Program-made: the position numbers and the translations under genes | Source of the DNA: Roseibium sp. TrichSKD4 | GTDB lineage: Bacteria; Pseudomonadota; Alphaproteobacteria; Rhizobiales; Stappiaceae | Assembly (NCBI RefSeq): GCF_000148725.1 | Contig: NZ_GL476300.1 | Span: 184,257 to 248,256, forward strand | Direction: 5' to 3' | DNA: 64,000 nucleotides | The notes under the pieces: model-generated | The model's input: the letters and a program-made list of their open reading frames with translations, nothing else | The model's database searches: none | Told to the model about the DNA's origin: nothing | Part shown: piece after piece, positions 30,097 through 45,031 of the stretch | Layout of the letters: each line of letters opens with the position of its first letter | Numbering within the stretch: the stretch's first letter is position 1

Positions 30097-30750
30097 CTAG
30101 CTGCGCGGTGTTTGCTTTGGGAAAAAGCGGAAATGCCCGACAACCTTGAAAGCGAATAATCTGTCTTCAAGCCGGGTTCCACCGCCGATATTGTGAACAA
30201 CCATCGGATTGCCGCTGCGGGAAACCTCATCGCTGACAATGGACATATGCGGGAGGTTGCCGGGCAAAACCTGCTCGACGACATCACCGGGAAGATAGGT
30301 CTCTGGTTGATCGGTAACCGGCAAATCTGCGCCTTGCCGCTCAAAATATCTTGCAAGGTTCAAAACACGCCGGTGGTCGATGTTGCGATCAGGCCGTTTC
30401 AGCCCCCAGCGGGTCGGGTAAGCAGAGAAATGGGCTTTCATATCCAGATGGACTGCTTGTTGCAGATCAAAGTCAAAAGCATCACGATAGGCGCGAATGA
30501 TGACATCTGAACAAACACCGCGATCTCGCGGAACATCGCCATTTGTATATGTCAGACCAACATAGGCCGGGTCATAGATGACCGTAACGCCAATTTGGCG
30601 TTTTGCTGCCGCGATTAAATTTGCTGCCCTTGGATCCAACAAACCAAGTTGCGGAGGCTGATCTGCCCAAACATTTGAAGGGAACGATCTGGTCGCGCTA
30701 GCGGCTAGCGCAGCACCTCCCAGAAGAAAAAAAGCCCGTCTATCCATCAT
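30097..30750 (-). CDS. DUF1287 secreted protein
   Basis: Conserved protein of the DUF1287 (YiiX/NlpC-P60-like) family. The N-terminus MMDRRAFFLLGGAALAASATRS looks like a twin-arginine-type export signal with an incomplete RR motif. The conserved core includes RQIGVTVIYDPAYVGLTYTNGDVPRDRGVCSDVIIRAYRDAFDFDLQQAVHLDM, with a Cys that could be catalytic, and later PHMSIVSDEVSRSGNPMVVHNIGGG with a His. Length (217) is typical. The ATG at 30750 follows GAGGGT; an upstream extension to 30822 is unlikely. Function is unknown; a papain-like hydrolase acting in the periplasm is a reasonable guess. Confidence 0.82.
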   Translation of the reverse strand: MMDRRAFFLLGGAALAASATRSFPSNVWADQPPQLGLLDPRAANLIAAAKRQIGVTVIYDPAYVGLTYTNGDVPRDRGVCSDVIIRAYRDAFDFDLQQAVHLDMKAHFSAYPTRWGLKRPDRNIDHRRVLNLARYFERQGADLPVTDQPETYLPGDVVEQVLPGNLPHMSIVSDEVSRSGNPMVVHNIGGGTRLEDRLFAFKVVGHFRFFPKQTPRS

Positions 30751-30854
30751 ACCCTCATCCTTTGAAGGACGAGAGTCATAGGATAGACGGGCGAATTTGT
30801 GACGTAACGGAGGCCATTGCATGTCAAGCCGCAGACGACCATCCGAAGCCAGCT

Positions 30855-32135
30855 TTAGTCAAATCCGACAAGCGCTTTACGGCGTTTTCCGACAGCGAGC
30901 GCTAAACGGTCGTCGGCCTGGAGGTTACCAGCTGTGATCTGGCGGCGCGCATCATCAACCACTTGCCGGTTCAAGCGGACTCCGCCGCCTTCAACGAGGC
31001 GTCTGGCCTCGCCGTTTGAGCCTGCAAAGCCAACGAGCACCAGGAGTTCCAGCAAACCAAGGCCTTCAGACAGACGAATGCGCGGCAACACGTGCGTTGG
31101 TTCCAGAAGCTCTTCCGCGCCGCCGAACAAGGCTTCCCCCTGCTCCAAAGCCTTCCGGGCTTCTTCCGGGCCATGCACGATTGCCGTGACCTGCGTTGCC
31201 AACACTTTCTTTGCATCATTAAGCTCATGCCCTTCCAAGGCTGAAAGGCGCTCAACTTCATTCATGGGAAGCTCGGTGAAGAGCCTTAGGAAACGCCCAA
31301 CATCTGCATCCGCGGTGTTGCGCCAGAACTGCCAGAATACAAACGGAGACAGGTGCTCGGGATGAAGCCAGACAGCGCCAGCAGCGGTCTTGCCCATTTT
31401 GGCACCAGAAGCTGTCGTTAGTAGCGGCACCGTCAGACCGTGAAGCTTGCGACCGTCAGCCTTTCGACCCAGCTCGATCCCATTGACGATGTTCCCCCAT
31501 TGATCAGACCCGCCGATTTGCATTTCGCAGTTGTAGCGGCGGGAGAGTTCAAGGAAGTCAACAGCTTGCAACATCATGTAACAGAACTCGAGAACCGTCA
31601 GAGGCGACTGCGTATCCAGACGCGACTTCACGCTTTCAAACGTGACCATGCGATTGACCGTGAATTGGGAGCCATAGTCACGCAGAAACTCCAGAAACCG
31701 GAATTCGGTCAACCATTCTGCATTGTCAACGAGCAGTGCGCCGTCATCCCCGTCCATGGAGACGAGACGTTCGATGCAACGGCGAATGCCGGACACATTT
31801 GACGCAATCTTGAGTTCATCCAAAAGCGGCCGCGCTTCATTGCGGAAACTGGGGTCGCCGACTTGGGTCGTCCCACCGCCGAGCACTGCAATTGGCCTGT
31901 GACCGAGCTTTTGCATCCAACGCAGCGTCATGAGTGGCATCAGATGCCCGACATGCAGGCTTGCAGCAGTTGCATCAAAGCCGGCGTAAACTGTCACCGG
32001 TCCTTCCGCGAGACGGGCGTCTAGCGCTTCAAGGTCGCTCGCCTGATTTACCAGTCCGCGTTCCAGCAGAACTTGCAGGGTTTCGGATTTAAGGGGTGTT
32101 GCCGGTTTTCCGGCTTCGAGCATGTGTTTGGTCAT
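30855..32135 (-). CDS. tyrS: Tyrosyl-tRNA synthetase
   Basis: Charges tRNA-Tyr. The class I signatures are ATAASLHVGHLMPLMTL (HIGH-like HVGH) and KMGKT (KMSKS-like) in GAKMGKTAAGAV. Tyrosine-binding residues occur in VYAGFDATA and YNCEMQIGGSDQWGNIVNGIEL. An S4 RNA-binding domain closes the protein (FAGSNGEARRLVEGGGVRLN). I chose the ATG at 32135 (MTKHMLEAG), with GGAAG upstream. Length (426) is normal. Upstream are a terminator hairpin and a 22-codon leader peptide with three Tyr and two Phe codons, which look like an attenuator. Confidence 0.95.
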   Translation of the reverse strand: MTKHMLEAGKPATPLKSETLQVLLERGLVNQASDLEALDARLAEGPVTVYAGFDATAASLHVGHLMPLMTLRWMQKLGHRPIAVLGGGTTQVGDPSFRNEARPLLDELKIASNVSGIRRCIERLVSMDGDDGALLVDNAEWLTEFRFLEFLRDYGSQFTVNRMVTFESVKSRLDTQSPLTVLEFCYMMLQAVDFLELSRRYNCEMQIGGSDQWGNIVNGIELGRKADGRKLHGLTVPLLTTASGAKMGKTAAGAVWLHPEHLSPFVFWQFWRNTADADVGRFLRLFTELPMNEVERLSALEGHELNDAKKVLATQVTAIVHGPEEARKALEQGEALFGGAEELLEPTHVLPRIRLSEGLGLLELLVLVGFAGSNGEARRLVEGGGVRLNRQVVDDARRQITAGNLQADDRLALAVGKRRKALVGFD

Positions 32136-32175
32136 TTTCAGCTTCCTGGTGGCAGCGCCAGGAGCCCACAAACCA

Positions 32176-32201
32176 AAAAGCCGCCTGACGCGGCGGCTTT
32201 T
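32176..32201 (-). terminator. Terminator hairpin in the tyrS leader (candidate attenuator)
   Basis: On the - strand, arms AAAAGCCGCC (32201-32192) and GGCGGCTTTT (32185-32176) around GCGTCA, followed by a T-rich run. It lies 28 bases after the stop of the leader peptide and 40 bases before tyrS. No + strand gene ends here, so the - strand reading is preferred. Confidence 0.8.
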
Positions 32202-32256
32202 GTGAGGTTTGATTTGTCAGAACAAGATCCTACGCACCCGCCGATATGTCGGTGAC
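32191..32256 (-). promoter_or_regulatory. Competing hairpins of the tyrS attenuator
   Basis: On the - strand the region right after the Tyr codons, CACC...TCGG (32254-32241), can fold with GGTG/TCGG sequences and bury CGGCGG (32243-32238). If a ribosome stalls on Y13-Y14 (32262-32257) it would cover the first arm and free CGGCGG to pair with CCGCCG (32196-32191), the 5' arm of the terminator, so tyrS is transcribed. A ribosome that finishes the peptide covers CGGCGG and the terminator forms. Confidence 0.6.
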
Positions 32257-32298
32257 GTAATAAAAATACGCGAAGGATGTGGTTGCCCATGTGTTCAT
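32230..32298 (-). CDS. Aromatic leader peptide of tyrS (22 residues)
   Basis: A short frame starts at ATG 32298 and stops at TAG 32232-32230. It reads M-N-T-W-A-T-T-S then F-A-Y-F-Y-Y and ends V-T-D-I-S-A-G-A. Three Tyr and two Phe in six codons is far above chance. A promoter (TTGACA-N17-GATGTT) ends eight bases before the ATG, so the message may have no 5' leader, as described for trpL in Sinorhizobium. The peptide is directly followed by alternative hairpins and a terminator ahead of tyrS. I infer that its translation senses charged tRNA-Tyr (and perhaps tRNA-Phe). Confidence 0.72.
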   Translation of the reverse strand: MNTWATTSFAYFYYVTDISAGA

Positions 32299-32305
32299 GG
32301 TGCCA

Positions 32306-32334
32306 AACATCCAGCAAACAACGGCAGGTGTCAA
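32306..32334 (-). promoter_or_regulatory. Sigma70-type promoter of the tyrS leader
   Basis: TTGACA at 32334-32329, a 17-base spacer, and GATGTT at 32311-32306 on the - strand. The expected start point, 7-8 bases on, falls at the leader peptide ATG. Confidence 0.65.
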
Positions 32335-32480
32335 GCACCTATGTTGAACCGCAAAAACCGGAAGGTATGACTGCTAACGCCGCACAACACACCTCCAAGT
32401 ATTAATTGTATAATTATCATTAACACTTTTTAATTGCAAATAAGTAACGATTTTCACTTACACTTACTCATGGGAAGGCA

Positions 32481-34352
32481 ATGGGTCAGCTGATGCGTTT
32501 TAAGTTTAATTCAGTCCTCTTACTCTCATACTTGTGCGGCTTGACTGCAATTTCGCTGATAATATTCGGCGCGCGACATCATGTTCAGTCCTTTAAAGAC
32601 GAGCAACATGCTGCTCTCGTTCGCTCTAGCGACGAAGCGGCACGGCATATCGGTTTTTTCATCAAGGAAAAGCGGGCGCTGGTTGAAGCTTTTGCTAATG
32701 CCCATGCAGACCAGCTTGCCGAACTGGTTCAGTCCAAAGAACACGAAGCGAACACTGCGACATTCATTGCTCAGCGACTGAAGGCCTATTTCCCTGGCCA
32801 TGTAACTTTTGCTCTTTGCGGTACGGACACTAACTTTGTTCCGAAACAATACGACCGTTTCTGGCGTGGCACCTGCCAAACAAGTGCACACCGCTTGGCC
32901 AGCACCGATGCTTCCTTTGCGTCTTATCGCCAAAATTGGAAAGAAGCTGAAAACAATGAAACCTATGTTTCATTGGAACCTCGCAATTTCCGTTTTGATC
33001 TAGACGCCCACTGGGTTGATTCCACAGGAGAACAAGGGCGACTGTTCGTTGCGTTCAACAATACCGAATTTGCCCGGATCATTGCCGCGCAAGAACTACA
33101 ACCCCATCAGCTGATCCTGTTTCACGCAAGCCGCCCTGATCTAGTGCAGCTGACATCAAACAGATGGATGGCCAGCTTCGAGACCGGCGATACCGTTTCC
33201 GAGGCACGCCTGGCCGAAATGGTTCCGCGAGTTCCAATCAGAAACTCGAATTGGGAGATTGCCTATCTTCCGTCTCACCCCCTATTCCAATCCTATCAGG
33301 AAGAAATCTACAACATGACTGCTCTCATTGTTGGAGTCATTTCCCTGCTTTTGGGCATGATGACTTTCTTGTACTTCAGAACGACCGCCCGATTGCGCCA
33401 GACCGAGGCTGAGATGTCGGAGGTTCGCAAACAGGCTCAGGTCGATAGATATTCTCTGCAAACACTTCTTGATGTTGTTCCAATCGGAATATTCCGCAGG
33501 AACTGCCATGGCGAAACCGATCTTGCCAACATCGCGAGCGCAGACCTTTTTGGAATCAAGCCAGAGGACATGTTGGGCAAGAGTGCCAGAGATCTCCACG
33601 ACAGCGACTTTGCGAACTGGGTAGAAGATTCTGATCGCGAGGTTGCCAACGGTTCCGGTACGCCGCATGCCTTTGACATCAAATACCGCGTTCCTGGCGA
33701 GCGAAACGACCGCGACTTCATAGTCTACAAAGCGCCGATGAGAGTTGAGGGAGAGGCCTTTCCGTCAATTGTGTCTGCGGTGGTTGATGTGTCGGAAGAG
33801 CGGGCCCTTCGCCGGAAGCTAGAACATTTGGCAGCTACCGATTCACTTACGGAGCTGCCCAATCGCCATCGCTTCCTGCAAGTGGCCAACCACGAGTTCC
33901 ACCGCTCGCGCCGGTATGGTCATGTGTTCTCCATCATGATGCTCGATATTGACCAATTTAAATCAATCAATACCGACTACGGTCAGGAGGCAGGTGATAC
34001 GGTTTTGAGATTTGTTGCCGAGTTCCTGCAAGATCAAGTGCGGACCAATGTGGACAAGGTTGCGCGCACCGATGGTAAAGAGTTTGGCTTCATTCTGCCT
34101 TCGACCCGCGCTGACGGTGCGGTTATTCTGGCCGAACGTATTCGTGAGCGCCTTGGTACGACTGTCATTCAATATATGGACGAAATGCTGGCCGTGACTG
34201 TCAGCATCGGCATCGCGGAATGGTCACCTGACAATCCGACCAGCGGGATCGACGAGACAGTCCGCCAAGCAGAAAAGGCTCTTTCGACTGCCAAGGAACA
34301 TGGCCGCAATCAAACCCGTATGTATGGCGAACTCACAGATCTTGCTAGCTGA
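32481..34352 (+). CDS. Membrane PAS-GGDEF protein with degenerate cyclase site
   Basis: Inner-membrane signalling protein. A transmembrane helix (about residues 12-30), a periplasmic region of about 240 residues with two or more Cys, and a second helix (about 272-295, ALIVGVISLLLGMMTFLYF) are followed by a PAS domain (about 325-430, LLDVVPIGIFRRNCHGETDLAN) and a GGDEF-type domain from about 455. The family loop DPLTELPN is present as TDSLTELPNRHRF, and MLDIDQFKSIN keeps a metal Asp, but the signature is D531-G-K-E-F instead of GGDEF, so cyclase activity is doubtful. It may sense or bind GTP or cyclic di-GMP instead. ATG with GGAAGG upstream. Confidence 0.88.
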   Translation: MGQLMRFKFNSVLLLSYLCGLTAISLIIFGARHHVQSFKDEQHAALVRSSDEAARHIGFFIKEKRALVEAFANAHADQLAELVQSKEHEANTATFIAQRLKAYFPGHVTFALCGTDTNFVPKQYDRFWRGTCQTSAHRLASTDASFASYRQNWKEAENNETYVSLEPRNFRFDLDAHWVDSTGEQGRLFVAFNNTEFARIIAAQELQPHQLILFHASRPDLVQLTSNRWMASFETGDTVSEARLAEMVPRVPIRNSNWEIAYLPSHPLFQSYQEEIYNMTALIVGVISLLLGMMTFLYFRTTARLRQTEAEMSEVRKQAQVDRYSLQTLLDVVPIGIFRRNCHGETDLANIASADLFGIKPEDMLGKSARDLHDSDFANWVEDSDREVANGSGTPHAFDIKYRVPGERNDRDFIVYKAPMRVEGEAFPSIVSAVVDVSEERALRRKLEHLAATDSLTELPNRHRFLQVANHEFHRSRRYGHVFSIMMLDIDQFKSINTDYGQEAGDTVLRFVAEFLQDQVRTNVDKVARTDGKEFGFILPSTRADGAVILAERIRERLGTTVIQYMDEMLAVTVSIGIAEWSPDNPTSGIDETVRQAEKALSTAKEHGRNQTRMYGELTDLAS

Positions 34353-34401
34353 GGCGCGGGCTGCTTGCCCACGCCTCGCTCTAAACCAATCCGGATACTA
34401 T

Positions 34402-35457
34402 TCAGAAGCCGATTGTGTAATCCGCCAGCATGATAAACAGCGGAATGCTGAGGATGGCGACCGGTGTTCCGAGACCCGTGGATGCGCCGATATAGGCAGA
34501 CGGATTCGCATCCGGCAGAGCGGCCCGCATGGTTGGTGGTCCGGACACATCCGAGCTGGACGCTGCCATGATTGACAACAGCACAACCCCGCCAGCGGAA
34601 AACCCGGTTATCTGGTGAACCGCAAAGCCGATCCCAAAGGCCAGAAGACCGTGGGTAAGTGGCGCCAGAAGCGCGTAGAGCAGATAGGCATGCGCAACCT
34701 TCTTCAGTTCCGATAGCCGTTACCAAGCCTCCATTCCCATCACAAGCATGAGGATGCTTAAAAGCCCCCGAAAAAGTGGCTCATAAAAACTGGCGTAGAC
34801 ACTTTCCGGCCTGGCAAAGAGCCCGATTGCGATACCCAACAACAAGGCGGAAATCGCCGGGCTCTTGGCGGTGTCGACAATTACGCTGCGGACTAGGGAG
34901 CCCTCTCCTTCGCCTCGCAAAGACATTCCGCCCTTCCCCAAAACGGCTGTTCCGCCCCCTGCAGAAACCGCGACCCGGGTTTCACTCACCCGCGCCAAAA
35001 CAACCGCTGTGACCAGCGCTGCCACATCCATGAAGGGATAAAGTGCGCCGATAAAACCTTCATAGTAGACCCCTTCAGCATCCAGCATGGCCATACCAGC
35101 GGCCAGTGTTGCAGCGGACACAGCACCGAACAGACCGACCGTCGCCATGGCATCGGACTTTGGAATTGTGCTCCAGTAGGAAAACAGCTTCCCACCCATC
35201 ACAACAATCAAAACGCCAATTGCCGCTGCAGCCAAAGCGGGCACCATCAAGGCCACCGCATCCGCCGAGCGGACGGAAATCCCTGCGCCGAGCCCCACCT
35301 TCAGCAGCAGAAGCAAGACGACAAACTTGTAGATGGGAGCTGGTATTTCCAGCTTGCTGCCAAGCGCTGCCAAGAGCATGCCGCCCATCAAGAAGGCCAT
35401 TGTGGGCTTTTGCAGCTGCCACAGAAGAACTGTTGCCACTTCAACAATCGTCGCCAT
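34402..35457 (-). pseudogene. SbtA-type sodium-dependent bicarbonate permease (DUF897), interrupted by an in-frame stop
   Basis: Ten-helix permease of the SbtA/DUF897 family, related to cyanobacterial Na+/bicarbonate symporters. The first 245 codons match from LQKPTMAFLMGGMLLAALGSKLEIPAPIYKFVVLLLLLKVG through LMLVMGMEAW; then a TAA (34722-34720) interrupts. The same frame then continues RLSELKKVAHAYLLYALLAPLTHGLLAFGIG to ADYTIGF and a TGA at 34402, which is the family C-terminus. A single C-to-T change (CAA to TAA) would explain the stop. The full length, 351 codons, is normal. It faces a LysR gene from which it is now split by an insertion sequence. Confidence 0.82.
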
Positions 35458-35529: not shown

Positions 35530-37184
35530 CCGGATTTCCCAAGTAGTCAGCTGATTTAGCTTCTTCTATCCTATTTTTCTCTTTATATTACAGCGTGTTA
35601 CTTGATGACGGAGGGCTGAAAAATGGCACACCCAACGGGTGCGGGTTCTGAGAGCGATTTTCGGCTGGATTTTGACCCTCGGGTGCGGTTGGAATTCCAC
35701 GGTTCAAAGATCAGTTCTGATGGCGGTCTTCTGCTTTACCGGGAGCTTGATGACGCCCTTGGCCTTTTCGGCAAAGCGGTTCGGTTCCTTCGGGATACCC
35801 GCAAAGGTAAGAATGGCGTTCACACCTTGATGGGCCTGCTGCGCCAATCGATATTTGGTCGCCTTGCGGGCTATGAAGATGTGAATGATGCCGTGCGTCT
35901 GTCGCGTGACCCGGTAATGCGCCAGATTATCGGGGGCCGTGCCGTTGACACTCAGGCGGCATCCTCCTCCCAGATGGGCCGCTTTGAGACTGAGGTGCTC
36001 GCGACTGCCGCCAACAGGGAAGCCTTGGCCGATATGCCCGGTCAATGGATTGATGCGGTGCATGGTCGCCAAGGACTGAACTACATCACCTTGGACATGG
36101 ATAGCTCTGTCAGCCCCACCCATGGCGCTCAGGAGGGAACCGCATGGAACGGGCATTTCGGCTGCAACTGCTATCACCCATTGTTCATCTTCAATCAGTT
36201 TGGCCACTTGGAACGCTGTGCCCTGCGCAATGGCAGCGTCCACAGCGCGGATGACTGGAAGGCTCTTCTGATACCCGTCATTGCGCGCTATGCAGAGCGC
36301 GACATCATGCGCTTCTTTCGCGCTGATGCCGCCTTTGCCATTCCGGAACTTTACGAGACTTTAGAGGCTGAAGGGTACCGCTACGCCATCCGCCTCAAAA
36401 AGAACGCTGTGCTGGAAGAGAAGATCAGCCATCAGCTGACCCGCCCCGTGGGACGTCCCTCAAAGACAAAGATCAAGCGCTTCTATGAGGTTTTTGAGTA
36501 TCAGGCTGCTTCATGGAGCAAGCCCCGTCAGGTGGTTGCCAAGATCGAATGGTATCCCGGTGATCTATTCCCTCGCGTGGGTTTTGTCGTCACCAACTTG
36601 CCGATGGAGCCGGAATGGATCATCCGCTTCTACAATCAGCGCGGCACAGCCGAACAGCACATCAAAGAAGGCAAGAACGCCATCACTTGGACCCGCCTGT
36701 CCTGCAAGCGGTTCTGTGACAATGAGGTCCGGCTTCAGCTTCACGCATTGGCGTATAACCTTGGTGTCTTCCTGCAAGGGCTAGACCTCCCGGAAGAGGT
36801 CGCCGACTGGTCGCTGACAAGTATCCAGAGCCGCCTCATCAAAATCGGGGCAAAGGTCGTACGCCATGCGCGCAAAATCACGTTCCAACTGGCAGAGGTG
36901 GCTGTATCAGGCTACGTCTTCGGACGAATCCTCGCCGCAATCCGCGCCCTCAAGCCCCCGCCGAGGCCTGCATGACGCTCCAAACAACGAAACCAACACA
37001 AATGCGGCTCCACAGCTGTGTCTTGTCGCAGCCCAAACGGGATAAAGTCCACGAAAAGCTCAAAAACCGCGCTTACGTAACCGTCAAAATCGATAATCGC
37101 CCCGACAACGCTGCCGTCAGAGTTGCAAACGTCCGTGAAAACGGTCAACCTCGTCGCAACACACAGTTACTTGGGAAATATCCG
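35530..37184 (+). mobile_element. IS1380-family insertion sequence
   Basis: About 1.65 kb with a complete transposase. The probable left end begins CCGGATTTCCCAAGTA (35530) and the right end, read inward on the other strand, CGGATATTTCCCAAGTA (from 37184). The shared inverted repeat is imperfect (CGGAT, a 2-base gap, TTCCCAAGTA). No clear 4-bp target duplication was found, so the outer limits are approximate or the flanks were rearranged after insertion. Confidence 0.8.
35623..36975 (+). CDS. IS1380-family transposase
   Basis: Transposase of 450 residues, close to the family norm. It opens with FRLDFDPRVRLEFHGSKISSDGGLLLYRELDDALGL, typical of IS1380/IS1247 members. DDE-type elements include the Asp in NYITLDMDSS, the Asp in FFRADAAFAIPELYE and the Glu in FYNQRGTAEQHIKEGKNAITWTRLSCK. 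A good ribosome-binding site (GGAGGG) precedes the ATG. No frameshift or stop is visible, so the element could still move. Confidence 0.93.
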   Translation: MAHPTGAGSESDFRLDFDPRVRLEFHGSKISSDGGLLLYRELDDALGLFGKAVRFLRDTRKGKNGVHTLMGLLRQSIFGRLAGYEDVNDAVRLSRDPVMRQIIGGRAVDTQAASSSQMGRFETEVLATAANREALADMPGQWIDAVHGRQGLNYITLDMDSSVSPTHGAQEGTAWNGHFGCNCYHPLFIFNQFGHLERCALRNGSVHSADDWKALLIPVIARYAERDIMRFFRADAAFAIPELYETLEAEGYRYAIRLKKNAVLEEKISHQLTRPVGRPSKTKIKRFYEVFEYQAASWSKPRQVVAKIEWYPGDLFPRVGFVVTNLPMEPEWIIRFYNQRGTAEQHIKEGKNAITWTRLSCKRFCDNEVRLQLHALAYNLGVFLQGLDLPEEVADWSLTSIQSRLIKIGAKVVRHARKITFQLAEVAVSGYVFGRILAAIRALKPPPRPA

Positions 37185-44723: not shown

Positions 44724-44783
44724 TTATAGTCCTTGGGCTCGGGTTAGCGCTAGACGCAAGCCGACTGACCTGCGCGCGCCCCC

Positions 44784-44982
44784 TCTGTCCCAGAACCTGA
44801 GAGATTTCCCGCTGACAAGCCCAAGGACCTGCCCAGAGGTTACTCCTTCGGTGAGCAGTCCGCCTCACGCGGAGCACTGCTTTCCAGAGCGTTGAGCCCA
44901 TGCGGTCCTTTTGCCTGAGAGTTTCCGGGGCGGTTGCTCCTTCGGCGCCAGGATCCTTTTCACCCGGCCTCTCCCGCATATG
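44784..44982 (-). ncRNA. Tandem glycine riboswitch
   Basis: Two glycine aptamers in the 5' leader of gcvT, read on the - strand. The first (about 44982-44908) has GGGAGAGGCC, GGCGCCGAAGGAGCAA and AACTCTCAGGCAAAAGGACC; the second (about 44900-44784) has CACCGAAGGAGTAACC and AAATCTCTCAGG. A short linker joins them. Boundaries are approximate. Both cores keep the GCCGAAGGAGYAA and CTCTCAGG blocks. Glycine binding should switch on the cleavage operon, as in other bacteria. Confidence 0.92.
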
Positions 44983-45031
44983 CATCACCGTGGCTGCCCA
45001 CGGCTGTCAGGGGACGACCCTGACGGAGCGG

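Follow-up and report, generated by a model that had tools for sequence, protein, structure and literature searches.

The 64,000-nucleotide stretch of Roseibium sp. TrichSKD4 DNA analysed here (the window, numbered from its first letter) carries on its reverse strand the gene tyrS (30855..32135, ATG at 32135), which encodes an auxiliary tyrosyl-tRNA synthetase (TyrRS) of 426 amino acids. The product matches the Pfam domains tRNA-synt_1b and S4, as well as NCBIfam TIGR00234, the tyrS equivalog. A first-pass annotation, made from the letters of the window, had placed a tyrosine/phenylalanine (Tyr/Phe) leader-peptide attenuator in front of this gene. The analysis described here indicates that the auxiliary TyrRS gene is very probably controlled by a ribosome-mediated transcription attenuator that senses Tyr.

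Upstream of tyrS and on the same strand, a sigma-70-like promoter, TTGACA-N17-GATGTT, lies at 32306..32334 (TTGACA at 32334-32329, GATGTT at 32311-32306). Seven nucleotides (nt) separate GATGTT from the ATG, at 32298, of a leader open reading frame (ORF) of 22 amino acids, MNTWATTSFAYFYYVTDISAGA (32230..32298, stop codon TAG at 32232-32230). The first-pass annotation had described both elements, a promoter followed within eight bases by the start codon of a Tyr-rich peptide, and both are found at these positions. The promoter is not listed in a simple sigma-70 scan of the window, because GATGTT matches the consensus at only three of six letters. The control codons TAT TTT TAT TAC (Y11 F12 Y13 Y14) occupy 32257..32268 on the reverse strand, where all the following elements are also found. 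Arm 1 (32251..32260) pairs in the local fold with 32238-32230, the 3´ part of arm 2, CGGCGGGTGCGTAG (32230..32243). The CGGCGG of arm 2 (32243-32238) pairs with arm 3, AAAAGCCGCCGC (32190..32201), whose partner is either arm 2, as an antiterminator, or arm 4, as a terminator. The predicted terminator, completed by arm 4 and the U-tract (32174..32186), is a stem of 10 pairs (32201-32176) followed by TGGTTTG. A second hairpin (32140..32166), with GGCTCCTGG as the 5´ arm and CCAGGAAGC as the 3´ arm, buries the Shine–Dalgarno (SD) sequence of tyrS.

The isolated leader RNA of the window folds better than 198 of 200 shuffled sequences (z −2.7). The predicted pairing of CGGCGG with the 5´ arm of the terminator holds, with 6 bp in the window versus 7–8 in most relatives. 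The claim that a first hairpin buries CGGCGG is borne out in part: a longer fold pairs CCGA with UCGG, but the best local 1:2 hairpin leaves CGGCGG mostly in the loop. Over the leader region, all Rfam 15 families stay below their gathering scores. For the T box in particular, there is no Rfam match at the gathering score in the window, nor up to E 10 across 31900-32600. A T box or another riboswitch at the tyrS leader was thus rejected, being without Rfam support.

The conservation of the leader was studied through a scan for TyrRS relatives, using one genome per species and short-peptide seeds, which yielded 59 loci (L001–L059). The leader-type set of 52 genes comprises the window and L001–L051, from Roseibium/Labrenzia, Pannonibacter and Pseudovibrio, with a few otherwise labelled, and the TyrRS of these 51 loci are 61–88% identical to that of the window. 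TTGAC occurs 34–38 nt upstream of the leader ATG in all 52 (exactly 36 nt in 32 of them), and the position-wise majority at −13 to −8 from the ATG reads CATTTA. A frame of 18–27 codons and a hairpin of the form GCCGCC-like...GGCGGC upstream of tyrS are likewise present in 52/52. At the level of sequence, such a joint recurrence of frame, promoter spacing and GGCGGC hairpin is more than chance. A leader of this kind is absent from the eight remaining loci (L052–L059); at L058, a stray frame with YY overlaps the gene start and does not fit the layout.

An SD-like motif was found upstream of the leader ATG in none of the 52 leaders, 51 of which have C at −1. The promoter-to-AUG spacing, combined with the absence of an SD, points to a leaderless transcript start. 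The leader ORF is thus probably translated from a transcript that lacks a 5´ untranslated region, though transcription could also start 3 nt upstream, where a G is frequent.

Tyr is the constant element of the control region, with three Tyr codons in 48 leaders and two in the other four. Phe is not: the Pseudovibrio control region reads VYYY or DFYY, and Phe is lost in most of these leaders. The Tyr half of the proposed Tyr/Phe sensing is therefore retained, while Tyr/Phe co-sensing as a conserved property was rejected. In the 28 leaders of 21 amino acids from Roseibium and Pannonibacter, pN/pS over codons 2–9 is 0.69, versus 2.3 and 1.1 in the shifted frames, which argues for a real frame under weak protein-level constraint; the corresponding value in eight Pseudovibrio leaders is 0.70. 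The leader stop codon falls at the end of the GGCGGC arm in Roseibium, before it in L033, L034, L048 and L049, and past it in other Pseudovibrio. Since arm 2 is kept while the stop codon moves, it is conserved as RNA, and the Tyr codons as codons. GCGG of arm 2 is invariant in alignment A1.

The alternative pairings were evaluated by folding each sequence and by a swap test, in which arms are exchanged among distinct sequences over 10,000 permutations. All 22 distinct 1:2 segments fold, with letters that differ between lineages (e.g., L003, L033, L037 and L038, the last reading ACGCAAGCC...GGCTTGTGT). For the 1:2 hairpin, 100 of 10,000 swaps were as good, which is moderate covariation support; within groups, the lower stem of the terminator was matched by 29 of 10,000. 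The first-pass annotation had suggested an alignment of related upstream regions and had named relatives lacking both frame and hairpins as evidence to the contrary. Such evidence did not emerge: the Tyr frame and the terminator recur in 52/52 and every 1:2 segment folds. Compensatory support is moderate for 1:2 and uninformative for 2:3. By eye, the first leader codons are conspicuously complementary to the stretch that follows the leader stop, for instance in L009 and L027. A helix between leader nt 1–14 and this stretch was rejected, as 5626 of 10,000 swaps were as good.

The effect of a ribosome was modelled in ViennaRNA, by computing the pairing of the RNA that remains once everything up to 12 nt beyond the start of the codon in the A site is masked. 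When that codon is the last Tyr, 4 nt are left between the mask and arm 2 in 50 leaders and 7 nt in the other two, and the 2:3 antiterminator is predicted in 52/52 transcripts ending at arm 3. With the ribosome at the stop codon, 2:3 is predicted in 0/52 and the terminator in all 52 full leaders. The attenuator geometry originally proposed for the window, in which a ribosome stalled at the Tyr codons favours antitermination and one at the stop covers CGGCGG, is reproduced by the model across the whole set.

The hairpin over the tyrS SD gave the clearest covariation. No swap in 10,000 was as good (own arms −16.15 versus −13.63 kcal/mol). Within groups, 332 of 10,000 swaps were as good among the 36 distinct Roseibium-type pairs, and none of 10,000 among the 13 Pseudovibrio-type pairs. 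The 45 bases upstream of leader-type tyrS fold with a mean of −16.4 kcal/mol (z −2.2; 38/52 below −1.5), compared with −9.8 kcal/mol (z −0.4; 8/36 below −1.5) for 36 long ORFs of the window, controls that were chosen mechanically and of which some may not be genes. The mean probability that the SD is unpaired is 0.18 at leader-type tyrS, versus 0.51 in the 18 control ORFs with an SD. From its sequence, this hairpin probably holds the translation of tyrS low, and it may represent a second control point beyond the classical attenuator.

The target gene itself is, to judge from sequence comparison, a divergent second TyrRS and not the housekeeping one. The first-pass annotation was right in that a TyrRS gene follows the leader, but took no account of this auxiliary status. 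In an order-level scan of 150 genomes, a TyrRS match was found in 147, and two copies were present only in G001 and G002, both of the family of the window. Within this family (Stappiaceae), leader-type TyrRS (63–88% identity) occurs in 66 of 87 genomes, all 66 of which also have a full-length, ordinary TyrRS. Of the remaining family genomes, 20 have one TyrRS match, and G164 has an ordinary TyrRS plus a decayed remnant. Leader-type TyrRS form their own clade on a long branch (support 100/100, and 100/99 in a second tree), while the ordinary TyrRS of three leader-type genomes group among other Hyphomicrobiales; no leader was found in the upstream regions of the ordinary genes of three genomes. 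NCBIfam assigns tyrS to both kinds of copy. Thirteen near-fixed differences between leader-type and other TyrRS were listed, and position 192 is Val in 52/52 leader-type versus Tyr in 52/52 other TyrRS. This position adjoins the Asp that reads the Tyr hydroxyl.

The leader was also described by a covariance model, R1, for which the authors supplied the structure, and its matches therefore lean towards that structure. R1 matches the same 66 of 87 family genomes as the auxiliary TyrRS (E at most 3.2e-10), always on the same strand and 31–79 nt upstream of the TyrRS match. In G164, a Tyr leader still precedes the decayed tyrS (R1 E 4.6e-5). At this locus (L120, G164:C1:3416800-3420200) the leader resembles that of L037 and has a terminator, and the auxiliary tyrS has several stops. 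The best R1 match in the 20 single-TyrRS genomes (1.25e-3) is itself an ordinary-looking terminator. Further genes under an R1 leader were sought among the weak family matches, and the five that were read (L121–L125) look like ordinary terminators lying behind or close to other genes. Short TyrRS C-terminal-like fragments were seen at L118 (G174:C23:186972-187253) and L119 (G162:C53:814638-814844), with 39% and 41% identity, each about 3 kb or less from a full tyrS copy in its genome.

Beyond the family, a search of 289 genomes of the class gave R1 matches at E 1e-3 or better in 10. Three matches besides G001 were read: L131 and L132 were discarded as ordinary-looking terminators, and the third belongs to G441, an alphaproteobacterium of another order. 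Its score (E 1.5e-4) is not significant alone. The G441 leader has TTGACA 36 nt before the ATG, the peptide MTEMMHITAVYFARLP with one Tyr codon, alternative arms and a terminator, and a GGTCTCC/GGAGACC hairpin covers the SD of its TyrRS gene. The ribosome model gives 1:2 unaided and 2:3 with the stall. Confinement of the leader to Stappiaceae is overturned by this genome.

G441 also has a second TyrRS, at 58% identity; of 43 genomes scanned in this order, 38 gave a TyrRS match at 1e-90 and G441 alone has two. At E 1e-110, two TyrRS are found in 4 of 385 class genomes (G001, G441, G349 and G358), and G349 and G358 show no R1 match. The tree places the G441 leader protein with those of leader type, on one side of a split from the other 57 rows that has support 98/93. 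These are long branches, and the grouping is possibly due to their attraction; common descent is argued from the shared control region. At position 192, the leader TyrRS of G441 carries Tyr, the letter of the housekeeping enzymes. A rescan of other TyrRS loci accepted a frame with any Tyr at the promoter spacing plus a terminator, since an earlier filter asking for three Tyr or YY, under which L093 gave a stray frame that does not fit the layout, would miss G441. The rescan found a leader in 0/60 and 0/51 loci, with a filter that also missed the terminator of a known leader, L129; among the 60, L059 has no upstream sequence, L088 has about 45 nt, and L063 and L094 are one gene.

The sequences show the frame, the promoter spacing, the alternative pairings, their conservation, the gene duplication and the covariation of the SD hairpin, and from these we infer a transcript start, termination, a Tyr response and a role for the enzyme. 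Transcription would begin at the leader AUG or a few bases from it, and a ribosome would trail RNA polymerase through a frame of 18–27 codons, whose Tyr codons reach arm 1 or stop just short of it. If Tyr-tRNA is ample, the ribosome would cover arm 2, leaving arms 3 and 4 to pair and to terminate transcription ahead of tyrS. Under a shortage of charged tRNA-Tyr, the ribosome would wait on the Tyr codons, 2:3 would form before arm 4 is made, and the polymerase would read through into tyrS. The SD hairpin would add a hold on translation. The spare TyrRS would then be produced when the ordinary TyrRS fails to keep tRNA-Tyr charged, whether Tyr itself is low or the enzyme meets an inhibitor or an analogue of Tyr, for example D-Tyr.

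More tentatively, and with somewhat less than an even chance of being right, these parts could form a portable two-lock cassette, in which an alphaproteobacterial auxiliary TyrRS with its leaderless Tyr attenuator and SD hairpin serves as an emergency enzyme upon loss of Tyr-tRNA charging. The family would then stand apart from every sampled housekeeping TyrRS, and the trigger would plausibly be an analogue of Tyr or a natural inhibitor of TyrRS. The long branch of G441 and its Tyr at position 192 slightly lower the odds of this proposal.

A number of results weigh against the Tyr attenuator. The swap test ignores phylogeny. For 2:3, 841 of 10,000 swaps were as good, the arms being too invariant for the test, and for the nearly invariant 3:4 helix the count was 4806 of 10,000. 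RNAalifold on A1 returned 10 pairs (seven in the terminator, three inside arm 2), no 1:2 and no two-sided changes; support for the 1:2 hairpin comes from per-sequence folding and swaps. At equilibrium and without a ribosome, 2:3 outcompetes 1:2 in the partial transcripts of 31 of 52 leaders, and modelled stalls from nine codons before to two past the last Tyr codon all favour 2:3. Consequently, Tyr specificity would rest on where ribosomes actually wait and on the order of folding, rather than on the model. What the model does predict is that the ribosome must pass the Tyr codons to shut tyrS, and it does not prove Tyr specificity by itself; in Roseibium-type leaders, Phe codons adjoining the Tyr codons would act alike. 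In full-length leaders with a stalled ribosome, 3:4 keeps at least five pairs in 44/52, and antitermination must therefore be kinetic. In G441, part of 2:3 (2.9 pairs) remains with the ribosome at the stop. Many of the 66 genomes matched by R1 are species used in building it. Poor U-tracts are seen in L033, L034, L048 and L049, and moderate ones in other Pseudovibrio.

The poor U-tracts of these four leaders also favour an alternative in which control is mainly translational, with 3:4 acting as an inefficient terminator and setting, together with the SD hairpin, the translation of tyrS. The SD hairpin is indeed the best supported helix by the swap test and occludes the SD, and a pairing between the tail of arm 4 and the SD region is another option (as good in 4 of 10,000 swaps). 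According to the accessible part of PMC9413887, some known attenuators have, in place of a terminator, a structure that hides the ribosome-binding site. However, most Roseibium-type leaders have a GC-rich stem followed by CTTTTT, the geometry from the stall to arm 2 is of the antiterminator type, and no link was found from leader stalling to the opening of the SD hairpin. Mainly translational control is considered unlikely.

Still lower in probability is a leader RNA or peptide that acts mainly in trans, as described for Sinorhizobium rnTrpL and peTrpL, with the control of tyrS being secondary. The probable leaderless start, like that of trpL, and the retention of the leader in G164 despite its decayed tyrS would fit such a role. 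Yet peptide codons 2–9 are weakly constrained, and a single decayed gene may simply be recent, so that we regard this explanation as quite improbable. Hardly credible is a constitutive terminator next to an incidental Tyr-rich frame, with no regulation. It could appeal to the GC-rich terminators that match R1 weakly elsewhere in these genomes, but all 52 leaders retain the Tyr codons and their frame, the spacing of the promoter and the alternative pairings, even where the stop codon moves.

As for the neighbourhood of the locus, a DUF1287 gene (30097-30822, reverse strand) lies directly downstream of the window tyrS. A conserved tyrS operon was rejected, because this downstream gene recurs in only 1 of 51 loci (L001). 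An ORF of 450 amino acids (35623-36975, forward strand) resembles, by eye, an insertion sequence-type transposase, and beside it lie apparently split ORFs resembling a membrane transporter (34310-35457, reverse strand). A tandem glycine riboswitch, with two aptamers above the gathering score, is found at 44783-44986 on the reverse strand.

If the Tyr attenuator is real, leader-peptide control of a spare TyrRS would have evolved alongside the T-box route seen in Bacillus. The leader itself would sense how far tRNA-Tyr is charged, in a group of mostly marine bacteria. The conserved SD hairpin would suggest a layer of control that classical attenuators do not have, while the presence of a second TyrRS would point to some stress or inhibitor. 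The purpose of a locked second TyrRS would become testable in cultured Roseibium and Pseudovibrio.

No leader-peptide attenuator at tyrS was found among the literature matches listed; older surveys lay outside the search, and an earlier mention is possible. A close precedent is reportedly the auxiliary, antibiotic-resistant tryptophanyl-tRNA synthetase (TrpRS) gene of Streptomyces coelicolor, said to have been placed under ribosome-mediated attenuation by Vecchione and Sello in 2010. Both systems would combine a second aminoacyl-tRNA synthetase gene, beside the housekeeping one, with ribosome-mediated attenuation. The system described here differs in its amino acid (Tyr, not Trp), its host group (Alphaproteobacteria), its apparently leaderless start and its extra SD-occluding hairpin, and has no known inhibitor.

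The available portions of PMC2965389, PMC3847290 and PMC9413887 contain no tyrS leader. Attenuators at trpS and leuS in Streptomyces and at pheST in gammaproteobacteria are described in the accessible text of PMC1262725, which, as far as that text goes, gives none for tyrosine in Actinobacteria. The pheST, trp, his and phe attenuators of Proteobacteria share with the tyrS leader a short ORF, control codons, alternative pairings and a terminator, and pheST also has a synthetase as its target. They differ from the tyrS leader, which is Tyr-specific, serves an auxiliary synthetase gene and probably starts leaderless. The Rfam family Phe_leader (RF01859) matches weakly over the leader, with 20.9 bits, far below its gathering score of 55. 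In S. meliloti, trpL/trpE is an alphaproteobacterial attenuator with a leaderless leader ORF (PMC10117765, from the part available), and rnTrpL and peTrpL of Sinorhizobium are reported as trans-acting. Here, the amino acid and the target gene are others and an SD hairpin is added.

Duplicated aminoacyl-tRNA synthetases, including TyrZ and TrpRS1, are treated in the portions available of PMC9437257 and PMC4787780, the former stating the conditions that control TyrZ to be unknown. Bacillus subtilis tyrZ is also a second TyrRS under RNA control tied to tRNA-Tyr, but it has a T box riboswitch and a MarR regulator (PMC9437257, same portion), whereas a translated leader peptide is predicted here. 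The leader of Roseibium and its relatives, with its probable leaderless start and a conserved SD-occluding hairpin, would thus be an attenuator that controls an auxiliary TyrRS gene through a Tyr leader peptide, and in this sense a putative counterpart of B. subtilis tyrZ.

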